The notes beneath the pieces are model-generated. The model saw only the letters and a list, made by a program, of their open reading frames with translations, was not told where the DNA came from and made no database searches. Source: Sporanaerobium hydrogeniformans (GTDB lineage: Bacteria > Bacillota > Clostridia > Lachnospirales > Cellulosilyticaceae). From it: a stretch of 64,000 nucleotides of DNA. Shown one piece after another: positions 7,448-22,574 of the stretch. The stretch is from positions 1 to 64,000 of the forward strand of contig NZ_PEDL01000009.1 in the NCBI RefSeq assembly GCF_002735925.1, in the 5' to 3' direction. Every line of letters starts with the position of its first letter. Position 1 is the stretch's first letter. A program made the position numbers and the translations under genes.

Positions 7448-8725
7448 TTAGATTTGAGAGAGTGCTTGCTCGATATCTGCAAGAATATCTTCAACATCTT
7501 CAATACCAATTGATAAACGAATCATTTCTTTGCTAACTCCTGCCGCAACTAATTCTTCTTCTGTAAGTTGTGAGTGAGTTGTACTAGCTGGGTGGATTGC
7601 TAGAGATTTAGCATCGGCAACATTGGCAAGAAGTGAAAAAAGTTCAAGCTTTTCTGTAAATTTCCTTGCCGCCTCTTCACCAGCTTTTACCCCAAAGGTA
7701 AAGATAGAGCCTGCACCTTTTGGTAAATACTTTTGTGCTAAATCATAGTATTTATCCCCTTTAAGGGATGGATAGCTTACCCATGCTACTTTGGGATGAT
7801 TGGATAAATACTCAGCTACTTTTTTAGCATTTTCTACGTGTCTTTCTACACGAAGCGATAGGGTTTCAAGTCCTTGTAAAAATAAGAAGGCATTAAATGG
7901 ACTAAGCGTTGCTCCTGTGTCACGAAGTAAGTTTACACGTGCTCTTAAAATAAAAGCTAACTCACCAAAGGCTTCTGCTGGTACAAGTCCATGATAGCTT
8001 GGATCTGGAGCTGTAAAATCTGGAAATCTCCCGCTTGCTGCCCAATCAAAGTTCCCCCCATCTACGATAATACCACCGATGCTTGTGCCGTGGCCACCAA
8101 TAAATTTAGTTGCAGAATGTACAACAATATCTGCACCAAACTCAATAGGTCTTACAAGATAAGGTGTACCAAAGGTATTGTCTACAATAAGTGGCAATTT
8201 ATAGTGATGTGCTAAAGTGGCAATGGCTTCGATATCTGCTACATTGGTGCGTGGGTTACCAATCGTTTCTATATATAAGGCTTTTGTTTTATCATTAATC
8301 TTACCTTCAAAGTCTTCTATGCTATCAGGATTTGCAAAATGAGTAGTAATACCATATTTGGTCAAAGTATGGGCAAAAAGATTGTGTGTACCACCGTATA
8401 AGGTATTCGCTGCTACAATTTCATCTCCTGCACCTGCAATATTGATAATTGCATAAGTAATGGCTGCAGAACCAGATGCTACAGCAAGAGCTGCTTTACC
8501 ACCTTCAAGAAGAGCTATACGCTTTTCAAAAACATCTGTCGTTGGATTCATAATACGCGTATAAATATTACCTGGTGTCTTAAGCCCAAAAAGATCTGCA
8601 CCATGCTGAGCATCATCAAATACATAAGATGTCGTTTGATAAATAGGTACTGCCCTTGATTTAGTAGTAGGATCTACTTCTTGACCGCCGTGAACTTGTA
8701 GTGTATTAAATTTGTAATCTGCCAT
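7448..8725 (-). CDS. metY: O-acetylhomoserine sulfhydrylase
   Basis: MetY is a PLP enzyme that joins O-acetylhomoserine with sulfide to give homocysteine, or with methanethiol to give methionine directly. The protein has the Cys/Met-metabolism PLP fold; the Schiff-base lysine is in [10 protein letters not shown]. Its length of about 425 residues and the insertion-rich middle separate MetY from the shorter cystathionine gamma-synthase family. The start is taken at the ATG for MADYKF. An in-frame ATG 18 bp upstream overlaps the AGGAGG ribosome site and is rejected. Expression is governed by the SAM-I riboswitch at 8793-8934. Position beside a nitrogenase-like cluster suggests a role in capturing methanethiol. 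Confidence 0.93.
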
Positions 8726-8792
8726 TTTAAAATTCCTCCTCATTAATGTGATTATTTTTATAAATCCACCCTATCCATTCTCTCTTTAGATA

Positions 8793-8934
8793 ACAAAAAC
8801 CCTCTTCCTAAGAAGAGGGTGCTCTATTTACAAGCAAACCTTATCTCTCAGGATTTCCTGCTGGAATTAGCACCTTGCATTTACTGCTGGTTGCTGGGTT
8901 TCATGGGGCCAGTCCCTCCACCTCTCTGGATAAG
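8793..8934 (-). promoter_or_regulatory. SAM-I riboswitch (S-box) upstream of metY
   Basis: Read on the minus strand, the aptamer starts CUUAUCCAGAGAGG at 8934. It contains the GGGACUGGCCC and AAACCCAGCAACC core elements and GGUGCUAAUUCC, and closes with GAUAAG near 8840. A terminator hairpin (8799-8820, CCCTCTTC loop GAAGAGGG) with a U-tract follows. High SAM should stabilise the aptamer and terminate transcription of metY. Confidence 0.95.
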
Positions 8935-8954
8935 TTTTTCGATTTATTTAATTC

Positions 8955-8983
8955 ATTGTATTCCTATAACTTTACTATGTCAA
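8955..8983 (-). promoter_or_regulatory. Sigma-A promoter of the metY leader
   Basis: On the minus strand TTGACA (8978-8983), a 17-bp spacer and TACAAT (8955-8960) precede the SAM-I aptamer by about 20 bp. It has the same -35, -10 and spacing as the promoter before the metN leader. Confidence 0.75.
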
Positions 8984-9020
8984 TACTTTTTAGAAAAAAA
9001 TAAATATTTTTATAGGTATA

Positions 9021-10208
9021 CTAGGTTTTATTTCTTACTTGTAATATAGCCCCCTCCAACTGGATAAGAGCTTTCTCTAGTATTTGGCGGGGACAAGCAA
9101 TATTTATACGTTCAAAATCTTCTCCTGATTTACCAAAGAGTGCACCTTCATCTAACCAAAGTTTTGCCTTATTTACTATTAAATCTTGCCTCACCTTTGG
9201 GTTTAACCCTAAGCCATTACAATCAATCCACACTAAATAAGTCCCTTCTGGCTCTACTAATTTAAGCTCTGGAAGTCGTCTCTCTAAAAAACACCTCACA
9301 AAGGCAAGGTTCTCAAAAAGGTATCTTTTTAACTCCTCTAACCATTCTTCTCCATAGGTATAAGCTACCTCACAAGCTTTAAGCCCCATTATATTAAGTT
9401 GACTATAAGCATTTTTTTGTAATTCTTTCTTAAATTGCTCTCTAAGCATTTTATCTTGTATAAAAATATTGGATACTTGTAAACCTGCCAAATTAAATGT
9501 TTTACTGGGCGCTGTACACGTTATAGTATGCTGTGCATACTCTGGCTTAATATTAGCAAAAATACTATGTTCATGACCTTCATATACAAAATCAGAGTGA
9601 ATTTCGTCTGCTACGATATAAACATTATGTTTGATGCAAATATCTCCTAATCTACTAAGCTCCTCCTTCGTCCATACTCTACCTACTGGATTGTGAGGAC
9701 TACAAAGCACTAAAAGTTTTACCTTATTAGTAATAATTTGTTTTTCCAAAGTCTCAAAATCCATCGTATATTTATTATTTCTATAAATCAATTCATTTTT
9801 AATAAGTCTTCTATTATTAGCCTTAATAGTTTTAGCAAAAGGGTAATAAACAGGCTCTTGAATCATCACTGCATCATTTTCTTGTGTGAGTGCTCTAATA
9901 GCTACCGCAATAGCATAAACAACTCCTGGCGTTTTAACAAGCCAAGAAGGTTCTACCTTCCATCCAAAGCGCCTTTCATACCAACTCGCTACTGCTAGAA
10001 AGTAATCATTTTTTTGTTCTGAGTAACCATAAATACCATGTTCGCTTACCTTTATTAGTGCTTCACGTATCTCTGGCAAGGTTTGAAAATCCATATCTGC
10101 AACCCATAGGGGTAAAATATCTACGGGCTTTCCATTTTCTTCTATAAAATCATACTTAATAGAGTTAGTATGTGACCGATTAATAAGCTCATCAAAATTA
10201 TATTTCAT
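9021..10208 (-). CDS. MalY/PatB-type aminotransferase, putative C-S lyase
   Basis: This class I/II PLP enzyme belongs to the MalY/PatB subfamily, whose members cleave cystathionine or other cysteine S-conjugates to a thiol, pyruvate and ammonia. The N-terminus LPLWVADMDFQ is typical, and the PLP lysine lies in APSKTFNLAGLQ. The 395 residues match the family. AGGAGG precedes the ATG. It follows the NifK-like gene by 82 bp with a hairpin in between, and precedes the metY promoter. In this setting a C-S lyase releasing methanethiol or homocysteine is likely, but the substrate is not shown by sequence. Confidence 0.85.
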   Translation of the reverse strand: MKYNFDELINRSHTNSIKYDFIEENGKPVDILPLWVADMDFQTLPEIREALIKVSEHGIYGYSEQKNDYFLAVASWYERRFGWKVEPSWLVKTPGVVYAIAVAIRALTQENDAVMIQEPVYYPFAKTIKANNRRLIKNELIYRNNKYTMDFETLEKQIITNKVKLLVLCSPHNPVGRVWTKEELSRLGDICIKHNVYIVADEIHSDFVYEGHEHSIFANIKPEYAQHTITCTAPSKTFNLAGLQVSNIFIQDKMLREQFKKELQKNAYSQLNIMGLKACEVAYTYGEEWLEELKRYLFENLAFVRCFLERRLPELKLVEPEGTYLVWIDCNGLGLNPKVRQDLIVNKAKLWLDEGALFGKSGEDFERINIACPRQILEKALIQLEGAILQVRNKT

Positions 10209-10289: not shown

Positions 10290-11624
10290 TTAATTGTAGC
10301 TACTTAAGACTACATCATAAATGTCTTCAATGAGTCTTAATCCTCCTTTAAACCCTACATAACCTGTTGTGAGTACCAAACGATAAGGTGATGGATTTTC
10401 AATGGATAAGAAATCATAATCTTTTTCTTTAGCTAAATATTTATCCCAACCTGCGCCTAAGATAAGGCCTCTTCCTGGATGTTGGATTTCTCTAATTTTC
10501 TCCTGTGCCTCACCACCACTTGGCGTAAAGTAGAGAGGGATTTCCTTTTTATCAGAAGTAGACTTTAAGATCTCTTCGATATAGCCTTGCTGTGACTTAG
10601 GTGTTTTATCCGTAACAAAAACCTCTTTAGGTACGATGCCTACCTCATGAAGTAAAAATTTAGACAAACCTAATACATAACTGGAATCACCTATAATATG
10701 TGCAAAACTAGGGAGCCCATAACGGAACTCTGTAAGGAAGGTTGCCAAACTATCGATTTCTGCATAGTAGGCCTTTTCTTCTCTTTTAATAAATGCTAAA
10801 GCTTTCACCTCGTCTAAGTCTGCACCTTTCTCATTAGCAAATGCTAAAAGTTCTTGTAAAAAGCGAGTAGTTTCATTAGCCCCAATAGGTAAAAAAGGAA
10901 ATTCATAATAGGGTTGTTGGTACTTTTTCTCCAGATTCTTGACAATCTCCTTACCAAACCAAGGCGATACAAGAATATTGAAATTAGCTTCAGGAATAGT
11001 CTTCCATTCAGCCACCCCATTAGAGTAAGGTCCAAATAAAATATTGACTTCTAATCCAAGCCCCTCTAGTAAATACTTAAATTCAAATAAATTACCCTTC
11101 CAAAACTGATCTTGATAAGGAATAGAGGCAAATAAATTAACTAATTTTTTATTCTTTACTTTCTTTCTATCATAAAACTTATCTACAAATTGATCAATAA
11201 TAGCATTCACTACTTTGCTGTGTGCCACGATATTACTTGAAGTAAATCCCGCTGTTTCTACTTGAACGATAGGCTTATCTTCTTCTGCAAACTCACTTAC
11301 TACAGATTCAATGTCATCTCCTACAATAGCAGCTGTACAGCCCGTGAGTACCACTTGAAGGTCTGTATCTAATACTCTGTACGTATTTTTGATATTTTCT
11401 CTTAGTTTATCAAGTCCACCAAATACGACCTCTTTCTCCGAGAAGTTCGTACAAGGTGCTGTATTTCCTCCTGCATAACCTGTTGCTCTTTCAAAAAAAC
11501 GACTCACCATCATGCCACACCCTGGACCAGCGTGCAAAATAGGTACAGCTTTCTCTATAGCCGTAACGGTCTGCAATGCTCCAATAGCACAGGTGATACG
11601 TTGTTGCTCTATTGTATTAGCCAT
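10290..11624 (-). CDS. Nitrogenase component 1-like protein, beta (NifK-like) subunit
   Basis: This protein belongs to the nitrogenase component 1 family (444 residues) and is shorter than NifK, lacking its N-terminal extension. Cysteines at the three P-cluster positions are present: C12 (RITCAIGAL), C36 (AGPGCGMM) and C96 (TGCTAAIVGDD). Their spacing of 24 and 60 is close to NifK's 25 and 58. Its start overlaps the end of the NifD-like gene by 8 bp, indicating translational coupling and a heterotetramer. No nifE or nifN is present, so this is not a conventional nitrogenase. By content and context I favour a methylthio-alkane reductase (MarK-like) role; other group IV nitrogenase-like enzymes remain possible. 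Confidence 0.8.
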   Translation of the reverse strand: MANTIEQQRITCAIGALQTVTAIEKAVPILHAGPGCGMMVSRFFERATGYAGGNTAPCTNFSEKEVVFGGLDKLRENIKNTYRVLDTDLQVVLTGCTAAIVGDDIESVVSEFAEEDKPIVQVETAGFTSSNIVAHSKVVNAIIDQFVDKFYDRKKVKNKKLVNLFASIPYQDQFWKGNLFEFKYLLEGLGLEVNILFGPYSNGVAEWKTIPEANFNILVSPWFGKEIVKNLEKKYQQPYYEFPFLPIGANETTRFLQELLAFANEKGADLDEVKALAFIKREEKAYYAEIDSLATFLTEFRYGLPSFAHIIGDSSYVLGLSKFLLHEVGIVPKEVFVTDKTPKSQQGYIEEILKSTSDKKEIPLYFTPSGGEAQEKIREIQHPGRGLILGAGWDKYLAKEKDYDFLSIENPSPYRLVLTTGYVGFKGGLRLIEDIYDVVLSSYN

Positions 11625-13095
11625 TTTGTTTTCCTCCTAAAAGCTTACCCGATTCTTGTTCTAACCACCATTTGGTATAGGGATTCATAGCATGTTTAGA
11701 AAAATTCTTTACAAATTCATCATTTTCTATCACTTCTATAAGTCTTTTACCATAACGTACAATGCCTTCATAACCCATAGAATAGTGTTCATCCCCTATT
11801 AGCAAGGAAGGAATACCCAACTTAGCCCCCCATAAAGTCATCCCACCATGACGAGCAAGAAGAACATCTGGCCTTACCTTATTTAAGGAATTCACCAATT
11901 GATACTCTTGCTTGTTACATACATTATAATGTGGTACGTCACCATAGTCCTCTACTACATGAGCAAGAGCATCCGCCTCCACTGACTCATTGTCATAGAG
12001 TGGATCATGGTGAAAAATGGCTGCACCTACTGCTTTCATTCCTAATTCACTTAAAATAGCAACAAGAGAATGCCCATGAGAAGCTCCTCCTGTTACATAG
12101 GCTGTCTTACCTTCTAATTTTTTTCTTATCTTTGCAATCTGAGGAAGCCATTCTTCTTTTTGTATCTTGAGGAAGTCTTCTACCTCTGCTTCTTTATGCG
12201 TTATTTTTCCTAATTCACGGAACCATCTATCTGTTTGAGGAATACCGTAAGGAGCTGAGGTTTTAATCTCTGGCACCCCATACTTTTGTTCTAGAGCTGC
12301 TCCTAGATAAGAGCCTAATGTGGCACAAATCTGCACACTAGCTATTGCTTCTGAGCTTCTGCTAAGCTGTTCCACTGTAGAATAAGGTGTTACATAATTA
12401 GGCTTAAGTCCTAATTCTTTAAACCATTTTCCAAAGACGTCTGAACCCCAAAAGTTAATGACATTGACCCTATCCTCTTGTTTTTTCTCAGGAGCTTTTA
12501 TCAGCTTTCTAGCAATGGCATGGTAGCCGGCATCAAAGCCTGTCGTCCAAATCTTAGAGCGAAAACCCTCACAGTAAATCCCGATAACAGGGATGCCTAA
12601 TTCATCTGCCATTTCATCGGTAATAGATTCTACATCATCTCCGATAATCCCTACTGCACAAGTGGTTGCCACAAAAATCACTTTAGGGTCGACCTTTTCA
12701 TAAACCTCTTTAATAGCTGTTCGTAGCTTTTGACTTCCTCCATAAATCGTATCCTTTTCCTCTATATCCGTTGAAAAAAGCTTACGTTGAGTAGGGTTTG
12801 CTACTCCTCTTAAATCACCATTTTGCTGATACGTAAAGTCAAATTCGTGTAAACAGCCTAAGCACCCTATAGGCCCATGACTAATAACTGCTGCATCTTG
12901 AATCATAACTACCGTACAAATCGCTTGTGCGACTGAACACCCTATTGTTTGGTTAAACTGATGATTTCCCTCCTTCAGCTTACCGCATCTCGCATGACCT
13001 ACTAGTTCCTTTGCACTTCCGCAATAACCCGTGATAGATCCTAGCCTGGTTTCACGAATGGCTACCTCTGGTAAATCTAAATTTAATTTACTCAT
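11617..13095 (-). CDS. Nitrogenase component 1-like protein, alpha (NifD-like) subunit
   Basis: This is a NifD-like catalytic subunit of about 492 residues. Numbered from the chosen start, P-cluster cysteines are C53 (TIGCSVAQ), C78 (GPIGCLGC) and C146 (ATTCAVGIIGDD). Spacing of 25 and 68 matches NifD's 26 and 66. C257 (VQICATLGSYL) lies where NifD carries the cofactor-binding Cys275, and YCEGFRSK matches NifD's CEGFRG segment. The NifD His442 position is not clearly conserved; a histidine occurs a few residues further on in GDEHYS. The start was set at the second in-frame ATG because GGAGGAG lies just before it. The likely role is the cofactor-bearing subunit of a Mar-type reductase; substrate assignment is inference. 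Confidence 0.8.
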   Translation of the reverse strand: MSKLNLDLPEVAIRETRLGSITGYCGSAKELVGHARCGKLKEGNHQFNQTIGCSVAQAICTVVMIQDAAVISHGPIGCLGCLHEFDFTYQQNGDLRGVANPTQRKLFSTDIEEKDTIYGGSQKLRTAIKEVYEKVDPKVIFVATTCAVGIIGDDVESITDEMADELGIPVIGIYCEGFRSKIWTTGFDAGYHAIARKLIKAPEKKQEDRVNVINFWGSDVFGKWFKELGLKPNYVTPYSTVEQLSRSSEAIASVQICATLGSYLGAALEQKYGVPEIKTSAPYGIPQTDRWFRELGKITHKEAEVEDFLKIQKEEWLPQIAKIRKKLEGKTAYVTGGASHGHSLVAILSELGMKAVGAAIFHHDPLYDNESVEADALAHVVEDYGDVPHYNVCNKQEYQLVNSLNKVRPDVLLARHGGMTLWGAKLGIPSLLIGDEHYSMGYEGIVRYGKRLIEVIENDEFVKNFSKHAMNPYTKWWLEQESGKLLGGKQNG

Positions 13096-13161
13096 TTTCT
13101 CCTCCATCTATCTTCTTATTCTCAGCCTTAAACCTCTTTTTTTAACAAAAACCTTTGGCTT

Positions 13162-14061
13162 TTAGCCATGCGAAAAGGTTTCTACCACCTCTTTATCATA
13201 GAGTTCCTTATGTAAGCTTTGTCCTTTGCCTGGTATGCCACATGCATCTGCCCTACAGTGTTTGCAGTGTCTAAATACCTCTAAATACTCGCTAGCTTCC
13301 TTTCTCACCCGTTCTAATAGCATACAACTGGGTGCCTTAATATCAGCTAGTTCGTGTTGAGGAATGAGGGGAATAATATTTAAAAGGGATGCACCTAGTT
13401 CCTTAGTGACCTTGGCAATCTCCTTCACATGTTCATCATTAATACCAGGGATAAGTACTGTATTAATTTTAACCAATATCCCTAGTTCTACGGCCTTTTT
13501 GATGCCTTTTAGTTGCGCTTCAATAAGCTTGTTTGCCCCTTGAAGCCCAGTCAGTTTTTTACCCTTTTCATCAATGACATAAGCAATTATTTGGCTTAAA
13601 ATATCTGGTTCTACAGCATTTACCGTTACTGTAATAGTCTCCACACCTACTTCTTTAAGCCTCTCTACCTTATCATATAGCTTTAAGCCATTAGTGCTTA
13701 AGCAGCTAATAAGCTCAGGATATGTCTTTTTCATAATGGCAAATGTCTCTAAAGCGTAATCTGTAGCTAATGTATCTCCTGGCCCTGCTATCCCTACTAC
13801 TTTTAGCTCAGGACAAAGTGTCAAGGCTTTATCTACTATAGCTGGCGTCTCTTCAGGCTTAAGAAGAAGAGAACTTACTCCTGGCCTGATTTCTCCTTTA
13901 TTAAATCCTCTTTTGCAAAATCGGCATTGAATATTACAACTTGGACTTACAGGTAAATGGATCCTTCCACTCTTGTGGTGTGCCTCCTTGCTTAAGCAGG
14001 GATGATTTTTTACTAAATGATCAAACTGATTAGCGTGCTTATGACCTCCTATTTGAGTCAT
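13162..14061 (-). CDS. NifB-like radical SAM cofactor-assembly protein
   Basis: NifB fuses iron-sulfur clusters and inserts carbide to make the 8Fe precursor of nitrogenase cofactors. This 299-residue protein has the radical SAM motif C42-x3-C46-x2-C49 (CNIQCRFC), the NifB hallmark HPCLSKEAHH (C22, H28, H29), RPGVSS, GPGDTL, and the C-terminal C-x2-C-type segment HCKHCRADACG. It is a stand-alone core NifB without the NifX-like tail; a separate NifX-like gene sits directly upstream. Its presence without NifEN suggests that the partner reductase uses the NifB product (8Fe cluster) itself, as proposed for Mar. Confidence 0.87.
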   Translation of the reverse strand: MTQIGGHKHANQFDHLVKNHPCLSKEAHHKSGRIHLPVSPSCNIQCRFCKRGFNKGEIRPGVSSLLLKPEETPAIVDKALTLCPELKVVGIAGPGDTLATDYALETFAIMKKTYPELISCLSTNGLKLYDKVERLKEVGVETITVTVNAVEPDILSQIIAYVIDEKGKKLTGLQGANKLIEAQLKGIKKAVELGILVKINTVLIPGINDEHVKEIAKVTKELGASLLNIIPLIPQHELADIKAPSCMLLERVRKEASEYLEVFRHCKHCRADACGIPGKGQSLHKELYDKEVVETFSHG

Positions 14062-14104
14062 CTCTATCCCTCACTTTCTATCTAGGATTCTTCTTTATTA
14101 AAAG

Positions 14105-14440
14105 TTATTTTCTATTTGTCCTTTTTAGATTCTCTAATATTTCTTGTACCTCCCTAGACATTTCATAGGCTTCTATCCCATGCCTTCGGAGTTCATCATA
14201 GGCTCCTGGCCCTATCCTTGAAACAAATACAAATTTACAATCACTAATTATCCCAATAGTCTTTTCCAAGGCTTCTATACTATGTTCAAACTCTTGGCAA
14301 GACGGTGTATTACTTCTTTCTTCTATGAACGTCACTTGCTCTGCACTTTTAATCTCATAAACTTGAAATTGGGGTGTTCGCCCAAAGTGCTGATTAACCA
14401 CAATGCCATCACTACTTGCAAATGCTACTCTGTAGGCCAT
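14105..14440 (-). CDS. NifX/NafY-family iron-molybdenum cofactor-binding protein
   Basis: This small 111-residue protein has the dinitrogenase iron-molybdenum cofactor fold: VAFASSDGIVVNQHFGRTPQFQVYEI near the N-terminus and GPGAYDELRRHGIEAYEM near the C-terminus. Relatives (NifX, NafY, the NifB C-terminal domain) bind or carry cofactor precursors. Placement between the NifH-like and NifB-like genes supports a carrier role for the NifB product. It starts 12 bp after the nifH-like stop codon, with GGAGG upstream. Confidence 0.85.
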   Translation of the reverse strand: MAYRVAFASSDGIVVNQHFGRTPQFQVYEIKSAEQVTFIEERSNTPSCQEFEHSIEALEKTIGIISDCKFVFVSRIGPGAYDELRRHGIEAYEMSREVQEILENLKRTNRK

Positions 14441-14451
14441 GTTTTCTCCTC

Positions 14452-15333
<882 letters not shown>

Positions 15334-17944: not shown

Positions 17945-18105
17945 AAAAAACTACTTCTTTGTATAAGAAAGTAGTTTTGCAGAAAATCTATGGCTACTCT
18001 CTTATCTTTCAAACCTTATGGTTTGTAGGAATTAGCACCTTGAATAACTAAGTTATCCTGGTTGCCGGGCGTCATTGGGCCAGTCCCTCCGCCTCTCTGG
18101 ATAAG
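17945..18105 (-). promoter_or_regulatory. SAM-I riboswitch (S-box) upstream of metNIQ and the nitrogenase-like genes
   Basis: On the minus strand the aptamer begins CUUAUCCAGAGAGG at 18105, with GGGACUGGCCC, GCCCGGCAACC and GGUGCUAAUUCC, and closes with GAUAAG at about 18001-18006. A terminator stem AAAACTACTT/AAGTAGTTTT with a U-tract lies at 17945-17978. It is a transcriptional OFF switch responding to SAM, and it heads the whole metN-to-C-S-lyase gene string. Confidence 0.95.
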
Positions 18106-18149
18106 AATTTAAAACGTTTTTAATTTCCTAGTATTACTATATGTTTAGT

Positions 18150-18270: not shown

Positions 18271-19590
18271 ATGGAGGATCCTAGAAATGATAACCTACTA
18301 TCAGAAGCACTCTGCCAATATAAAAAATGGGTACAACAAGAGTATTTAAATTGTCTCCCTAACTTTTGTGCTTGTCCTCCTCCAAATTGCTCTTATCCTA
18401 TTACACTATTTAAAATTGAGCTCCTCCCGAAGTCTATAAATCCTTCCTTTTTTACCTTTATCCTAAATGCTCTAGGAAATCTAAAAGATGTCTTTGGATA
18501 CATCTTAGAATCTTCTTCTAATGCCCTTCAATTTTATATAGGTCTAAAAACAATAAGTGACACTTCTAGTTCTGTTAAACTACTTACAAATGGACTTTTA
18601 AGCACCTTTCCTGGTGCCGTGTTTTATCAGCTATCTCCTCAAGATAGTAAGCTTCTTTTAAAAAAATGGTTTAATCCTAACCTTTACGATACACTGAGCT
18701 GTAGCTTGGTTATCCCCAATACTACAGATAGTACACATTCACCTATTAATGAAAAGTTTTTATCGCTTATGAAACAGGAGGAATTTCTAGCTTTTTTCTT
18801 AGCTATTCCTTTTACTTACTGCGAAATCAAATGTCTGATTGAACAATTAGAAACCTTATCTCAAACACTTTCTTCATTCTCTCAGACTAATTATAGTTTT
18901 TCTTGTAACACTTCTAAAAGTATTGCTTTACATCGTTCTAACACTATTTCCAAAGCTAATGGTTCTTCTTGTACCTGTACCACTGGCTTTACAGAAGCTC
19001 GCAATAGTTCTAACTATGTCCTTATCACGCCATCTACTTCTTTTCCCCTCACCGGTACTCGTTCCCTAAATCTTAGTGTTTGTCGCAACGAAACAAAAGG
19101 CTGTGTGGATACAGATAGTAAATCTACTGCAGAAGCTACGAATAAGACAGATACACTCTCCAATGGTACAATTCATCAAAAAAATACTCAAACTGCTAAC
19201 AATGATGTTATTTTATTTTCTAATCAAAATAAGGCAGTTAGTGAAGCCCTCTCTCGATTAAATATGCTTATTTCACGCCTTGTAGCAGCCTCACAAGGAC
19301 CCATGTTTGCTTTTAGTTCTTACTTTTTATCTCCTTCTAAAGCAACAAGTATACGAGCAGCTTATACCTATACAGGATTAGCTAAAGATCCGACTGCCAA
19401 CTTACAAGATAGCTTTGTTATCACTTGGGATAAGGAGGAACCTTGTTTTTCCCTTCTCTTAGAAACCTTGCAAACTTTTACACCTCTACATTTTCGTCCA
19501 ACTCATGAAGCATCAGATGTTGTTACTAGTTCCGTTCTTATTACCTGTGCAGAGCTTTTAAATAGCTTTTATTTTCCATCCCCCTCTTAA
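18271..19590 (+). CDS. Unrecognised 439-residue protein with Ser/Thr/Asn-rich linker
   Basis: I do not recognise this protein. It has a good ribosome site (AAAAAGGAG, 9 bp before the ATG) and is closed by a terminator. The N-terminal part (1-200) looks folded and has a cysteine-rich segment near 29-40 (CLPNFCACPPPNC). Residues about 205-305 form a low-complexity Ser/Thr/Asn/Cys-rich stretch, and 310-439 look folded again (VSEALSRLNMLISRLVAASQ). No signal peptide or membrane helix is evident. The plan vaguely recalls the N-terminal half of large HerA/VirB4-like ATP-binding proteins that carry a similar Ser/Thr-rich linker, but no P-loop is present. It is a monocistronic gene between the methionine leader and mccB. 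Confidence 0.55.
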   Translation: MEDPRNDNLLSEALCQYKKWVQQEYLNCLPNFCACPPPNCSYPITLFKIELLPKSINPSFFTFILNALGNLKDVFGYILESSSNALQFYIGLKTISDTSSSVKLLTNGLLSTFPGAVFYQLSPQDSKLLLKKWFNPNLYDTLSCSLVIPNTTDSTHSPINEKFLSLMKQEEFLAFFLAIPFTYCEIKCLIEQLETLSQTLSSFSQTNYSFSCNTSKSIALHRSNTISKANGSSCTCTTGFTEARNSSNYVLITPSTSFPLTGTRSLNLSVCRNETKGCVDTDSKSTAEATNKTDTLSNGTIHQKNTQTANNDVILFSNQNKAVSEALSRLNMLISRLVAASQGPMFAFSSYFLSPSKATSIRAAYTYTGLAKDPTANLQDSFVITWDKEEPCFSLLLETLQTFTPLHFRPTHEASDVVTSSVLITCAELLNSFYFPSPS

Positions 19591-19682: not shown

Positions 19683-19738
19683 AAATATAATACCAAGTAA
19701 ATAAACCTATTTACTTGGTATTATATTTGTTGTATACT
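19683..19738 (+). promoter_or_regulatory. Large inverted-repeat operator and promoter of mccB
   Basis: A perfect 21-bp inverted repeat (19683-19703 with 19708-19728, 4-bp centre; core ACCAAGTAAATA/TATTTACTTGGT) overlaps a likely -35 (TTTACT, 19710-19715). A -10 (TATACT, 19733-19738) follows after 17 bp. No T-run follows the repeat, so an operator is more likely than a terminator. The binding protein is not identifiable here; CymR-type control of cysteine genes is one possibility. Confidence 0.6.
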
Positions 19739-19798: not shown

Positions 19799-20890
19799 AT
19801 GCATTTTAATTCAAAAGTCATACACGGTGGTATATCAGAAGACGCGGCAACAGGTGCCGTAAGTATTCCTATTTATCAAACTTCAACCTATAGGCAATCA
19901 GCTATTGGTCAACACAAAGGCTATGAATACTCTCGAACAGGTAACCCTACACGTGAAGCTCTAGAAGCACTCATCACTGAGTTAGAAGGGGGTGTTGCTG
20001 GCTTTGCCTTTGCTTCCGGTCTAGCAGCCTTATCTACTGTGCTTATGCTCTTCCAAACAGGTGACCATATTCTTTTATCCGATAATGTCTATGGAGGAAC
20101 TTTCAGAGTGGTGGATAAGGTTTTTGCTCCATTGGGTCTTACTTATTCTTTAGTAGACACTTCTAACTTAGAAGAAGTGGAAAAAGCCATTACTCTTCAA
20201 ACAAAAGCAATTTTTATTGAAACACCTACTAATCCTTTAATGAAATTAACAGACTTATCTGCTCTTGCTGCTCTTGCAAAAAAATATCAACTTTTATCCG
20301 TAGTAGATAATACATTTTTAACCCCTTATTTACAACGTCCTATTGAGCACGGCATTGATGTTGTCGTTCATAGTGCCACCAAATATCTCGGGGGGCATAG
20401 TGATTTGGTTGCTGGTCTAGTAGTTGTAACTACACCTGAACTTAAAGAACGCCTCCATTTTTTGCAAAATGCAGTAGGTGCTATATTAGGACCACAAGAT
20501 AGTTGGCTTCTCATGCGAGGTATTAAGACACTTGCTGTTCGTCTAGATAAGGCTCAGGAAAATGCCAAGAAAGTTGCTGATTTTTTAAATACTTTACCTG
20601 AGGTAAAAAAGGTCTATTATCCTCATATAGGAGCTATGCTTTCCTTTGAATTAGATACACCAGAAAGAGCAGCCAAACTAGTGGAAAAGGTCCAAATGAT
20701 TGCTTTAGCTGAAAGTCTAGGTGGTATCGAAAGCCTTATTTGTCTTCCCGCTGCTATGACACATGCCTCTATCCCTAAAAAGCAACGTGAAAAGCTAGGA
20801 ATTAAGGATAGTTTACTTCGCCTATCTGTTGGTATTGAGGATAGTGAAGATATCATTAATGACCTCAAGCAGGCACTTGGATATATCTAA
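19799..20890 (+). CDS. mccB: Cystathionine gamma-lyase / gamma-synthase family enzyme
   Basis: This Cys/Met-metabolism PLP enzyme would, beside an MccA-like partner, cleave cystathionine to cysteine (reverse transsulfuration). It may also act as a gamma-synthase. N-terminal VIHGG, EYSRTGNPTR and the PLP lysine in HSATKYLGGHSD are typical. The protein has 363 residues, about 15 fewer than relatives. The loop normally running from VYYPG...HP to GFGGMLSF is reduced to VYYPHIGAMLSF near residue 271, so roughly 16-17 residues are missing in frame. All other motifs look intact. AAAGGAGG precedes the ATG. The fused MccA/methyltransferase gene follows after 24 bp. Confidence 0.85.
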   Translation: MHFNSKVIHGGISEDAATGAVSIPIYQTSTYRQSAIGQHKGYEYSRTGNPTREALEALITELEGGVAGFAFASGLAALSTVLMLFQTGDHILLSDNVYGGTFRVVDKVFAPLGLTYSLVDTSNLEEVEKAITLQTKAIFIETPTNPLMKLTDLSALAALAKKYQLLSVVDNTFLTPYLQRPIEHGIDVVVHSATKYLGGHSDLVAGLVVVTTPELKERLHFLQNAVGAILGPQDSWLLMRGIKTLAVRLDKAQENAKKVADFLNTLPEVKKVYYPHIGAMLSFELDTPERAAKLVEKVQMIALAESLGGIESLICLPAAMTHASIPKKQREKLGIKDSLLRLSVGIEDSEDIINDLKQALGYI

Positions 20891-20914
20891 ATAAAAATAT
20901 AAGGAGGCTTTAAA

Positions 20915-22492
20915 ATGCATTATATAAATGATATCCGGGATTTAATTGGCAATACCCCTTTACTTAAGTTAAACCATCTTGCTCCAGAAATAGAGGCCAA
21001 TATCTTTGCTAAATTAGAATATTTAAATCCTGGTGGTAGTGTGAAAGACCGAGTAGGTCTTGAAATACTTGAAGCTGCTGAAAAGGAAGGAAAGCTTCTA
21101 CCTGGTTATACCATTATTGAAGCAACTGCTGGTAATATGGGAATTGGCCTTGCCATGGCAGCCTTTGAAAAGGGCTATGAAGTGAAGCTCGTTGTACCTG
21201 CTAAATTTGCTCTTGAAAAGCAAATTCTTATGAAAGCTTTGGGTGCAGAGATTATTATTACCCCTACTGAGGAAGGGATCGAAGGTGCTATTCGCAAAGC
21301 TAAAGAACTAGCAGATACTATCCCTTCTTCCTTCACCCCTAGCCAGTTTGAAAATAGACATAATATTTATGCTCACTTCAAAACAGGCAGAGAAATCTAT
21401 GAGGCTTTAGATGGACAAATTGACATCCTTGTAGCTGGTGCTGGTTCTGGTGGAACGGTTATGGGTATTGCCACCTATCTTAAAGCTCAGAATCCAAAGA
21501 TTAAAGTAGTACTTGCAGACCCTGTAGGCTCTATCCTAGGTGGTGGTGAAGAAGGAAGCTATCACATCGAAGGTATTGGTAATCACTTCATACCTAGTAT
21601 CTTTGACCCTTCCGTTATTGATGAGGTAGAAAAAATTTCTGATGAAGAGGCCTCTTATTATGTTCAGCTCCTTGGTAAAAAAGAAGGTGTTTTAGTAGGA
21701 GCATCCTCCGGTGCTGCCGTTGCTGCTTCCATTAAGCAAGCCTATAAAGCTCAAAAAACTGTTAACATTGTTACAGTCCTTCCAGATAGAAGCGATCGCT
21801 ACTTTAGCCAAAACCTCTACGACTTTGATCTTCGCCTTTCTGACTTTCGCTTTAAAGCTTTATTTGATAACTGGGCAGATGCTTATGACGGCACTATTAT
21901 GGCTTCTACAGGAGAATACCTAGAAGTTTTCGAAAATTACGATAGTATTCTTAAGGATACTGTCGCTGCCATTCATAAGCCAGAAGGGGCTTTGGTCTTA
22001 GACCTTGGTTCAGGAACAGGTAATCTTGCTCATCAAGCAGCTCTTGCAGGTTATAGGGTATTAGGCATTGAACCTAATGAACGCATGCGTCAAATCGCTA
22101 AGGCAAAATACCCCTCTATTACCTTCCTAGAGGGTACCTTCCTCAACCTACCTCACTCAGATGAACAAGTAGATGCCATTATCAGTAGCTATGCCTTCCA
22201 TCATCTATCTGATCAAGAGAAGGGGGCTGCTATTAAACTCTTTGCTAGCAAGCTTAAAAACCATGGTAAAGTTATCTTTGCCGATACTACCTATGCCTCT
22301 GTCGAAGCACAAAAATCTCTCTTACAAGAGGCTGAAGCCAAAGGTTATAAATCGCTTACTCGTGATTTAAAAACAGAATTCTATACCACACACCAAGTGC
22401 TTGAAAAGCTCTTTAAAAATCAAGGTTTTAGTATTCAGTTCGTCCAAAAAAATAAGTTTGTATGGATTTTAATTGCTACTAAAGAAACTTAG
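20915..22492 (+). CDS. Fusion: cysteine synthase/cystathionine beta-synthase (MccA-like) with YrrT-like methyltransferase
   Basis: Two enzymes lie in one 525-residue chain. Residues 1-305 are a PLP beta-replacing enzyme (NPGGSVKDR with Lys44, GAGSGGTVMG phosphate loop, GASSGAAVAAS). Residues about 312-525 are a class I SAM-dependent methyltransferase close to YrrT: FDNWADAYD, GEYLEVFENYDSIL, motif I VLDLGSGTGNLA near 360, and SYAFHHL. In B. subtilis yrrT and mccA are separate genes of one methionine-to-cysteine operon; here they are joined. The substrate loop reads TAGNMG where TSGNTG is usual, so Met75 replaces Thr. No stop or frameshift separates the halves. A direct channel from SAM-derived homocysteine to cystathionine is inferred. 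Confidence 0.88.
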   Translation: MHYINDIRDLIGNTPLLKLNHLAPEIEANIFAKLEYLNPGGSVKDRVGLEILEAAEKEGKLLPGYTIIEATAGNMGIGLAMAAFEKGYEVKLVVPAKFALEKQILMKALGAEIIITPTEEGIEGAIRKAKELADTIPSSFTPSQFENRHNIYAHFKTGREIYEALDGQIDILVAGAGSGGTVMGIATYLKAQNPKIKVVLADPVGSILGGGEEGSYHIEGIGNHFIPSIFDPSVIDEVEKISDEEASYYVQLLGKKEGVLVGASSGAAVAASIKQAYKAQKTVNIVTVLPDRSDRYFSQNLYDFDLRLSDFRFKALFDNWADAYDGTIMASTGEYLEVFENYDSILKDTVAAIHKPEGALVLDLGSGTGNLAHQAALAGYRVLGIEPNERMRQIAKAKYPSITFLEGTFLNLPHSDEQVDAIISSYAFHHLSDQEKGAAIKLFASKLKNHGKVIFADTTYASVEAQKSLLQEAEAKGYKSLTRDLKTEFYTTHQVLEKLFKNQGFSIQFVQKNKFVWILIATKET

Positions 22493-22534: not shown

Positions 22535-22574
22535 AAAAATCGATAGACTCACTTAAGTGAGTCTACCGATTTTT
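22535..22574. terminator. Bidirectional terminator
   Basis: AAAAATCG and CGATTTTT flank TAGACTCACTTAAGTGAGTCTA, a nearly perfect 40-bp palindrome between convergent genes. It has A- and T-runs on the outside and so serves both strands. Confidence 0.85.

Follow-up and report, generated by a model that had tools for sequence, protein, structure and literature searches.

What does a SAM-dependent methyltransferase contribute to the conversion of methionine to cysteine, and why, in the locus considered here, is it joined to the enzyme that makes cystathionine? In this pathway MccA forms cystathionine from O-acetylserine and homocysteine, and MccB cleaves the cystathionine. The accessible part of one earlier study describes MccA as an O-acetylserine thiol-lyase and MccB as a cystathionine/homocysteine lyase (PMC6522883); YrrT, or UbiG, appears elsewhere as an AdoMet-dependent methyltransferase encoded in the methionine-to-cysteine operon, and the portions of the papers available name no substrate for it (PMC3519770, PMC2940859, PMC9943018). 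A literature search, with subscription papers mostly outside its reach, returned no report of an MccA-YrrT fusion or of a YrrT substrate. The accessible text places the enzymes of Bacillus cereus in a yrrT-mtnN-mccA-mccB operon (BC4369-BC4366; PMC3519770), which resembles the present locus in having the same enzymes, encoded by linked genes, for the same conversion, but keeps yrrT and mccA separate and has mtnN inside the operon, whereas in the present genome pfs (mtnN) and luxS lie on contigs other than that of the fusion (G000:C29 and G000:C11, respectively). The ubiG-mccB-mccA(-luxS) operons of Clostridium likewise combine a SAM methyltransferase with mccB and mccA in anaerobic Bacillota, but as separate genes with the methyltransferase first; they are controlled, according to the passages available, by a T-box-Cys leader or, in C. 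acetobutylicum, by an antisense S-box (PMC2940859, PMC9943018). The fusion provides a single purifiable protein with which acceptors can be sought and the effects of SAM on cystathionine formation measured directly.

The window, a stretch of 64,000 nucleotides, is part of one contig of the 3.74 Mb genome of Sporanaerobium hydrogeniformans, in which a DNA search found the fusion gene in a single copy. The gene occupies positions 20915-22492 (+) and is a single open reading frame of 525 amino acids with an ATG start, no internal stop and a stop codon at 22490-22492; the preliminary description of one 525-residue protein without a break is thus borne out. Ahead of the ATG lies a ribosome-binding site (AAGGAGG, 20901-20907), and 24 bases separate the ATG from the stop of an upstream gene of the mccB type (19799..20890, +, 363 aa; Pfam Cys_Met_Meta_PP), and the two genes presumably share one operon. 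The mccB product belongs to the cystathionine gamma-lyase/homocysteine desulfhydrase family, and its best NCBIfam match is the bifunctional enzyme of that name (552.5 bits, below the 594 cut-off). In the fusion protein, a PLP enzyme of the MccA type (cysteine synthase/cystathionine beta-synthase family; residues 1-300, 20915..21814) is followed by a linker of about 12 residues, LYDFDLRLSDFR (about residues 301-312, 21815..21850), delimited by alignments and a start-codon scan and devoid of in-frame start codons, and then by a complete class I SAM methyltransferase of the YrrT type (residues 313-525, 21851..22489). A plasmid search gave 573 records with a match, none of which reached 80% query coverage.

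The names MccA-like and YrrT-like, given to the two halves beforehand, agree with Pfam, alignments and matches to solved chains. Pfam PALP covers residues 7-291 (239.7 bits, profile positions 1-295 of 295), and residues 3-299 align over nearly the whole length of 5xw3 ('O-acetylserine lyase', 313.9 bits), 6ahi ('Cysteine synthase') and 5b1h ('Cystathionine beta-synthase'). These three chains, taken to be O-acetylserine-dependent, have 311-315 residues and, unlike the fusion, no methyltransferase domain. The alignment also places the GGSVKDR lysine site in the MccA half, where K44 is presumably the PLP lysine, to judge from its position in the family. In the methyltransferase half, Methyltransf_25 spans residues 361-451 (67 bits) and a further methyltransferase model extends across 346-507. 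Its best sequence match among the best 60 of 100 solved chains is 3hnr, the probable methyltransferase BT9727_4108 of B. thuringiensis (256 bits, profile positions 11-223), which is also the top Foldseek match, among the 50 listed, of an AlphaFold model of this half alone (pLDDT 80; TM 0.78/0.90). 3hnr is a free-standing protein with no substrate named in its entry, whereas its counterpart here is fused; the other Foldseek matches listed are remote and of substrate types too mixed to indicate an acceptor. In a model of the full-length fusion (pLDDT 68, pTM 0.50), the junction at 292-336 falls below 50, which is too weak to assess domain contacts or to bear on coupling of the halves. PADLOC matched mad2 (78.7 bits) to the methyltransferase part, which we attribute to the likeness that methyltransferases share in general.

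No in-frame ATG, GTG or TTG occurs from residue 295 up to 329 of the window protein, so a methyltransferase that includes the N-terminal FDxWAxxYD part could not be made separately. Synthesis of a separate methyltransferase from an internal start was likewise rejected for the six known MccA-YrrT sequences, in which, over 50 codons scanned, no start is conserved at the junction: there is a TTG at 308 in L053 and L056, a TTG at 325 in L055, an ATG at 319 in L057, an ATG at 329 in the window protein and none in L054.

Both halves keep most of the residues that mark their families. A set of 79 MccA positions was defined by at least 95% conservation among 43 unfused sequences. All six MccA-YrrT proteins retain 71 of them, all six examined proteins of a second fusion with the reverse order, YrrT-MccA (see below), retain 68, and the window protein retains 75. 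Its TAGN loop is that of unfused MccA sequences, whereas TSGN stands in the second PALP gene of Tenuibacillus; the other close PALP gene of the present genome (G000:C11:459605-460507) is 45% identical to the fusion, which itself scores under the cysteine synthase cut-offs (338.2 against 344.15 for cysKM and 333.1 against 350.95 for cysK). By these comparisons the MccA half differs both from the second PALP gene of the genome and from the models for cysteine synthase. The window protein departs from the conserved set at four positions, with M75 in place of T, A99 of S, S247 of F and A263 of S; its clade shares the changes at 99 and 247, whereas M75 and A263 are unique to it within the clade. 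M75 is encoded by an ATG at 21137-21139, in the loop TAGNTGIG, and T occupies this position in each of the 54 other MccA sequences compared (43 of 43 unfused, 5 of 5 other MccA-YrrT and 6 of 6 YrrT-MccA). In relatives the T75 loop contacts the substrate carboxylate; M75 might impair substrate binding and weaken the synthase activity of the window's own protein. It could also be a single base error; T stands in the other five fusions.

The methyltransferase half matches its family over the full length, including the N-terminal FDxWAxxYD and C-terminal NxFVWxxxA ends; in an alignment of 10 sequences F13, F17, D18, W20, A21, Y24, N213, V216 and W217 (domain numbering) are invariant. G365, G367, T368, G369, N370 and E386, which make up the SAM motif of the family (GxGTGN and the acidic residue after strand 2), are conserved in all six MccA-YrrT fusions. 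Of 42 positions at which at least 93% of 45 unfused mcc-linked sequences agree, 40 are kept throughout the six; the other two are E363, replaced by D in all of them, and V328, replaced by I in the window protein. Residues kept well outside the SAM motif include F313, F317, W320, Y324, H429, H430, E488, Y490 and N513. The six reverse fusions all lack the common residue at I345, V516, W517 and A521, and some lack it at 346 or 371.

All 24 genomes of the window's family (f1) were searched, and evenly drawn samples of the wider groups. The intact fusion is present in 6 of the 24 (G000, the window's own, and G001, G016, G018, G019 and G020), with mccB upstream in 6 of 6 loci, and the proteins of the five relatives are 68-72% identical to that of the window over 522-525 residues. 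In G003 (L058 6800-7960), only broken fragments of mccB and of the methyltransferase half were found, with no match left to the MccA half; this is a decayed copy, reflecting decay of the pathway. The other 17 genomes contain no YrrT at E 1e-15 or better. No further MccA-YrrT fusion was encountered in the order (392 genomes), class (391) or phylum (348) samples, and none of the long methyltransferase frames at 14 loci (16 stretches, two refetched longer) has an attached MccA. Among these 14, L101 (G979, frame of 290 aa) has mccB and a partial MccA match as separate pieces. Weaker matches in the three samples are other methyltransferases and were left out of the YrrT counts; rows with E-values above the threshold were left out of these samples and of the Bacilli sample. 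In L062 and L063, a YrrT-like methyltransferase is fused to a MerR-type DNA-binding domain, in frames of near 350 aa.

The reverse fusion was first met in six genomes of the family f236 (Bacilli), in methyltransferase frames of 506-526 aa, within a Bacilli sample of 348 genomes of which 122 have YrrT at E 1e-50. YrrT occupies about residues 5-209 and MccA about 216-501, with some six residues between them, and each of the six proteins is 506 aa long; Pfam found both domains in the two proteins checked, and mccB and luxS follow in 6 of 6 loci read. A scan of 40 codons around the junction found no start in L182 and L183 and starts at varying places in the other four. A family-wide search (at least 502 of 506 query residues) found this fusion in 16 of 101 sampled f236 genomes, comprising 16 of 16 in the genera g655, g708 and g723 and 0 of 85 in g616 and g737, with 65-96% identity to the L182 protein. 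In a YrrT tree of 76 rows, the MccA-YrrT group (100/97) has as its sister the unfused yrrT of G1100 (100/97), and the YrrT-MccA group (100/99) lies across a 99/98 branch from it. In an MccA tree of 55 rows, the fusions again form two groups (100/99 and 100/100; bootstrap unsettled) on either side of a supported branch, and the placement of G1100 as a sister is weak (90/67). Since the two fusions fall apart with strong support whether the tree is built from the methyltransferase or from the MccA half, they are taken to be of independent origin, in opposite orders and in distant groups. That the same partner recurs in both orders is a strong comparative argument that YrrT and MccA are functionally linked. 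The fusion had earlier been thought to tie YrrT to the cystathionine step, and this tie now appears stronger than first claimed.

The reading that we prefer, at about even chances, is that the fusion is a bifunctional enzyme of methionine-to-cysteine conversion, with predicted activities. The YrrT half would be catalytically active, passing the methyl group of SAM to a small acceptor and leaving SAH; SAH would be converted to homocysteine through Pfs and LuxS, encoded elsewhere; the MccA half would trap the homocysteine with O-acetylserine as cystathionine, which MccB, encoded just upstream, would cleave to cysteine. A single chain would keep the SAM-spending entry and the homocysteine-trapping exit at a 1:1 ratio and in proximity. 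What the two halves catalyse, the part of YrrT in turning SAM into SAH and what the fusion is for are all inferred here. YrrT is assigned the entry because it is the sole linked enzyme recognised as able to carry out the SAM-to-SAH step, the one missing between SAM and Pfs among the linked enzymes recognised. The other enzymes are available in the MccA-YrrT genomes: LuxS and CysE are over the cut-off in 6 of 6, and Pfs in 5 of 6, with a weak match in the exception, G016 (73% complete). In the part of the source available, the unfused ubiG-mccB-mccA operon of C. acetobutylicum is expressed at high SAM only (PMC9943018), which fits a SAM-spending step. Channeling from SAH/homocysteine, as suggested in the preliminary description, does not hold as a single step, because SAH needs Pfs and LuxS, both encoded elsewhere in the genome. 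A counterpoint to a role confined to SAH is that Pfs, and not MccA, would then be the natural fusion partner, and this leaves room for an acceptor among the MccA ligands and for gating by SAM.

The surroundings of yrrT in Bacilli bear on these possibilities. One locus per genus was surveyed, over about 5 kb to either side (some 3 kb for L179, L180, L183, L184, L192 and L193). Both mccA and mccB lie near yrrT in 37 of 53 genera (34 of 50 when the three fused genera are set aside), and LuxS or Pfs in 30 of 53 (27 of 50 unfused). Neither mccA nor mccB was found in 16 of 53 genera; distant genes may have been missed, given these stretch lengths and the contig ends that cut short L203, L204, L214, L227 and L238. 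Among nine further genomes chosen by hand, from which G979, G828 and G1088 were excluded for their weaker match, both genes are present in 8. In view of the 16 genera with neither gene in the stretch, YrrT is not confined to the methionine-to-cysteine pathway. In L184 and L186 (f236), YrrT is free-standing, the next listed open reading frame downstream is queH, and mcc genes are absent from the stretch read; this neighbour is a lead to another role of YrrT. Conversely, G1105 has an MccA-type gene (51% identity to the MccA part of L182) and lacks a YrrT match at E 1e-50. Across 42 unfused mcc-linked loci, the gene next to yrrT on the same strand, at most 250 bases away, encodes LuxS/Pfs in 30, MccA in 7 and MccB in 4, with two loci counted twice and three lacking such a neighbour. 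That both fusions are nevertheless with MccA gives a one-sided Fisher value of 0.049 against LuxS/Pfs and 0.040 against LuxS/Pfs plus MccB, a weak bias from small numbers that ignores shared ancestry.

Among the alternatives, it is possible, if unlikely, that the methyl acceptor of YrrT is one of the compounds handled by MccA itself (homocysteine, cystathionine, cysteine, sulfide or O-acetylserine). Surplus homocysteine or sulfide might, for instance, be detoxified or diverted in this way, the two halves drawing on one shared pool. The choice of MccA in both fusions, although LuxS/Pfs is the commoner unfused neighbour, points this way, as does the conservation in fused forms of methyltransferase residues outside the SAM motif. 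DsyB (7wdq), an S-methyltransferase, is a remote fold match (rank 28 of the 50 listed, 17% identity) that carries little weight, because the relatives listed are remote and of many substrate types. Indeed, the solved relatives other than 3hnr, among the best 60 of 100 by sequence and the 50 listed by fold, all have this remote and mixed character, and yrrT stands without mccAB nearby in the 16 genera mentioned above; both observations speak against such an acceptor.

Somewhat more doubtful is a neutral origin, or one that only equalises expression, in which neighbouring operon genes lost the intervening stop without any functional coupling. The raw material for such an event exists: in G1100 the unfused genes follow the same order (mccB, mccA, yrrT), with yrrT overlapping the end of mccA by 4 bases at the longest reading, and the window's fusion could arise from such an arrangement by a small change. 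The adjacency test is also weak (p about 0.04-0.05). However, two independent events have been kept over long divergence (68-72% identity in f1 and 65-96% in f236), and the 12 sequences checked have no conserved internal start.

In animal cystathionine beta-synthase, a C-terminal SAM-binding regulatory tail consists of a pair of CBS (Bateman) domains. Its PLP core belongs to the same superfamily (e.g. 4coo) and, as in the fusion, is joined to a SAM-binding part, but that part is a CBS pair, whereas Pfam finds only methyltransferase models at the C-terminus of the fusion. This raises the prospect, a quite unlikely one in our estimation, of a SAM-coupled cystathionine synthase whose MccA half is gated, or served directly, by SAM binding or turnover in its YrrT partner. 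Homocysteine would then be passed to cysteine only when SAM is plentiful, and the fusions would be a bacterial, twice-evolved counterpart of the SAM control of the animal enzyme, with a methyltransferase in place of the Bateman domain. The stricter version, that the YrrT half is mainly a SAM sensor switching on the MccA half when SAM is plentiful, by convergence with the animal tail, is slightly less probable still. It would account for the joining of a methyltransferase with an intact SAM motif to a cystathionine-synthase core, C-terminally here and N-terminally in f236, and agrees with the high-SAM expression reported, in the text available, for the C. acetobutylicum operon (PMC9943018). Residues well away from the SAM motif are kept whether or not the protein is fused, which points instead to an acceptor site, and a YrrT that stands free, away from mccAB in 16 of 53 genera, is ill-suited to be a pure regulatory tail. 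A sequencing or assembly artefact or frameshift joining two genes, named in the preliminary description as what would undo the fusion, is hardly credible, and is excluded as far as sequence allows by the five open relatives and the reverse-order fusion.

A perfect 20-bp inverted repeat (19684..19727, +) lies upstream of mccB and overlaps a promoter-like site (19710-19738), although such matches are at chance level in this stretch (10 found, 8.2 expected). A related, mostly imperfect palindrome of the ATnCCnAGTAAAT - ATTTACTnGGnTAT type precedes mccB in all six fusion loci and is followed by GTATACT in five; it is a possible operator of some regulator. Behind the fusion gene is a terminator-like hairpin (22544..22565, +; 6 such sites found, 2.5 expected). 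An Rfam search of the region before mccB in the window returned no T-box or other leader, but chance microRNA matches alone, in contrast to the T-box-Cys leader described in the accessible passages on Clostridium operons (PMC2940859, PMC9943018). A T-box is found ahead of the unfused yrrT in L060. The MccB of the window lacks 16 residues after YYPG (20620-20640), as does that of all six MccA-YrrT genomes; this gap was rejected as a mark of the fusion, because it also occurs in the unfused L241 and L242 and not in the six reverse-fusion genomes.

As a whole, the window reads as a sulfur-salvage region. A SAM (S-box) riboswitch (17999..18107, -; Rfam RF00162, 92.2 bits) belongs to divergent metNPQ-like transporter genes, directly downstream of which are nitrogenase-like H, NifX-like, NifB-like, D and K genes (10290-15309, -). 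The H gene is over the nifH cut-off, and the D subunit matches, among solved chains, 9fmg (435.9 bits) and 9d9u (435.4), the next chain scoring 134. 9fmg is described in the accessible part of its source as a methylthio-alkane reductase structure (PMC12552129), and it looks likely that 10290-15309 encodes a system of this type under SAM-riboswitch control. Further along the same strand (7448-10208, -), a PatB-type C-S lyase and an O-acetylhomoserine sulfhydrylase, both over a family cut-off, could convert methanethiol or sulfide to methionine or homocysteine; the sulfhydrylase gene has its own SAM riboswitch (8838-8936). The mccB and fusion genes, in the opposite orientation to these salvage genes, would carry methionine on to cysteine. 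Between the two groups, at 18271-19590 (+), is a 439-aa open reading frame with no match in Pfam, NCBIfam or PADLOC; it is probably a real gene, for sequences about 35% identical to it adjoin the mcc locus in L057 (9233-10546) and L058 (5146-6522).
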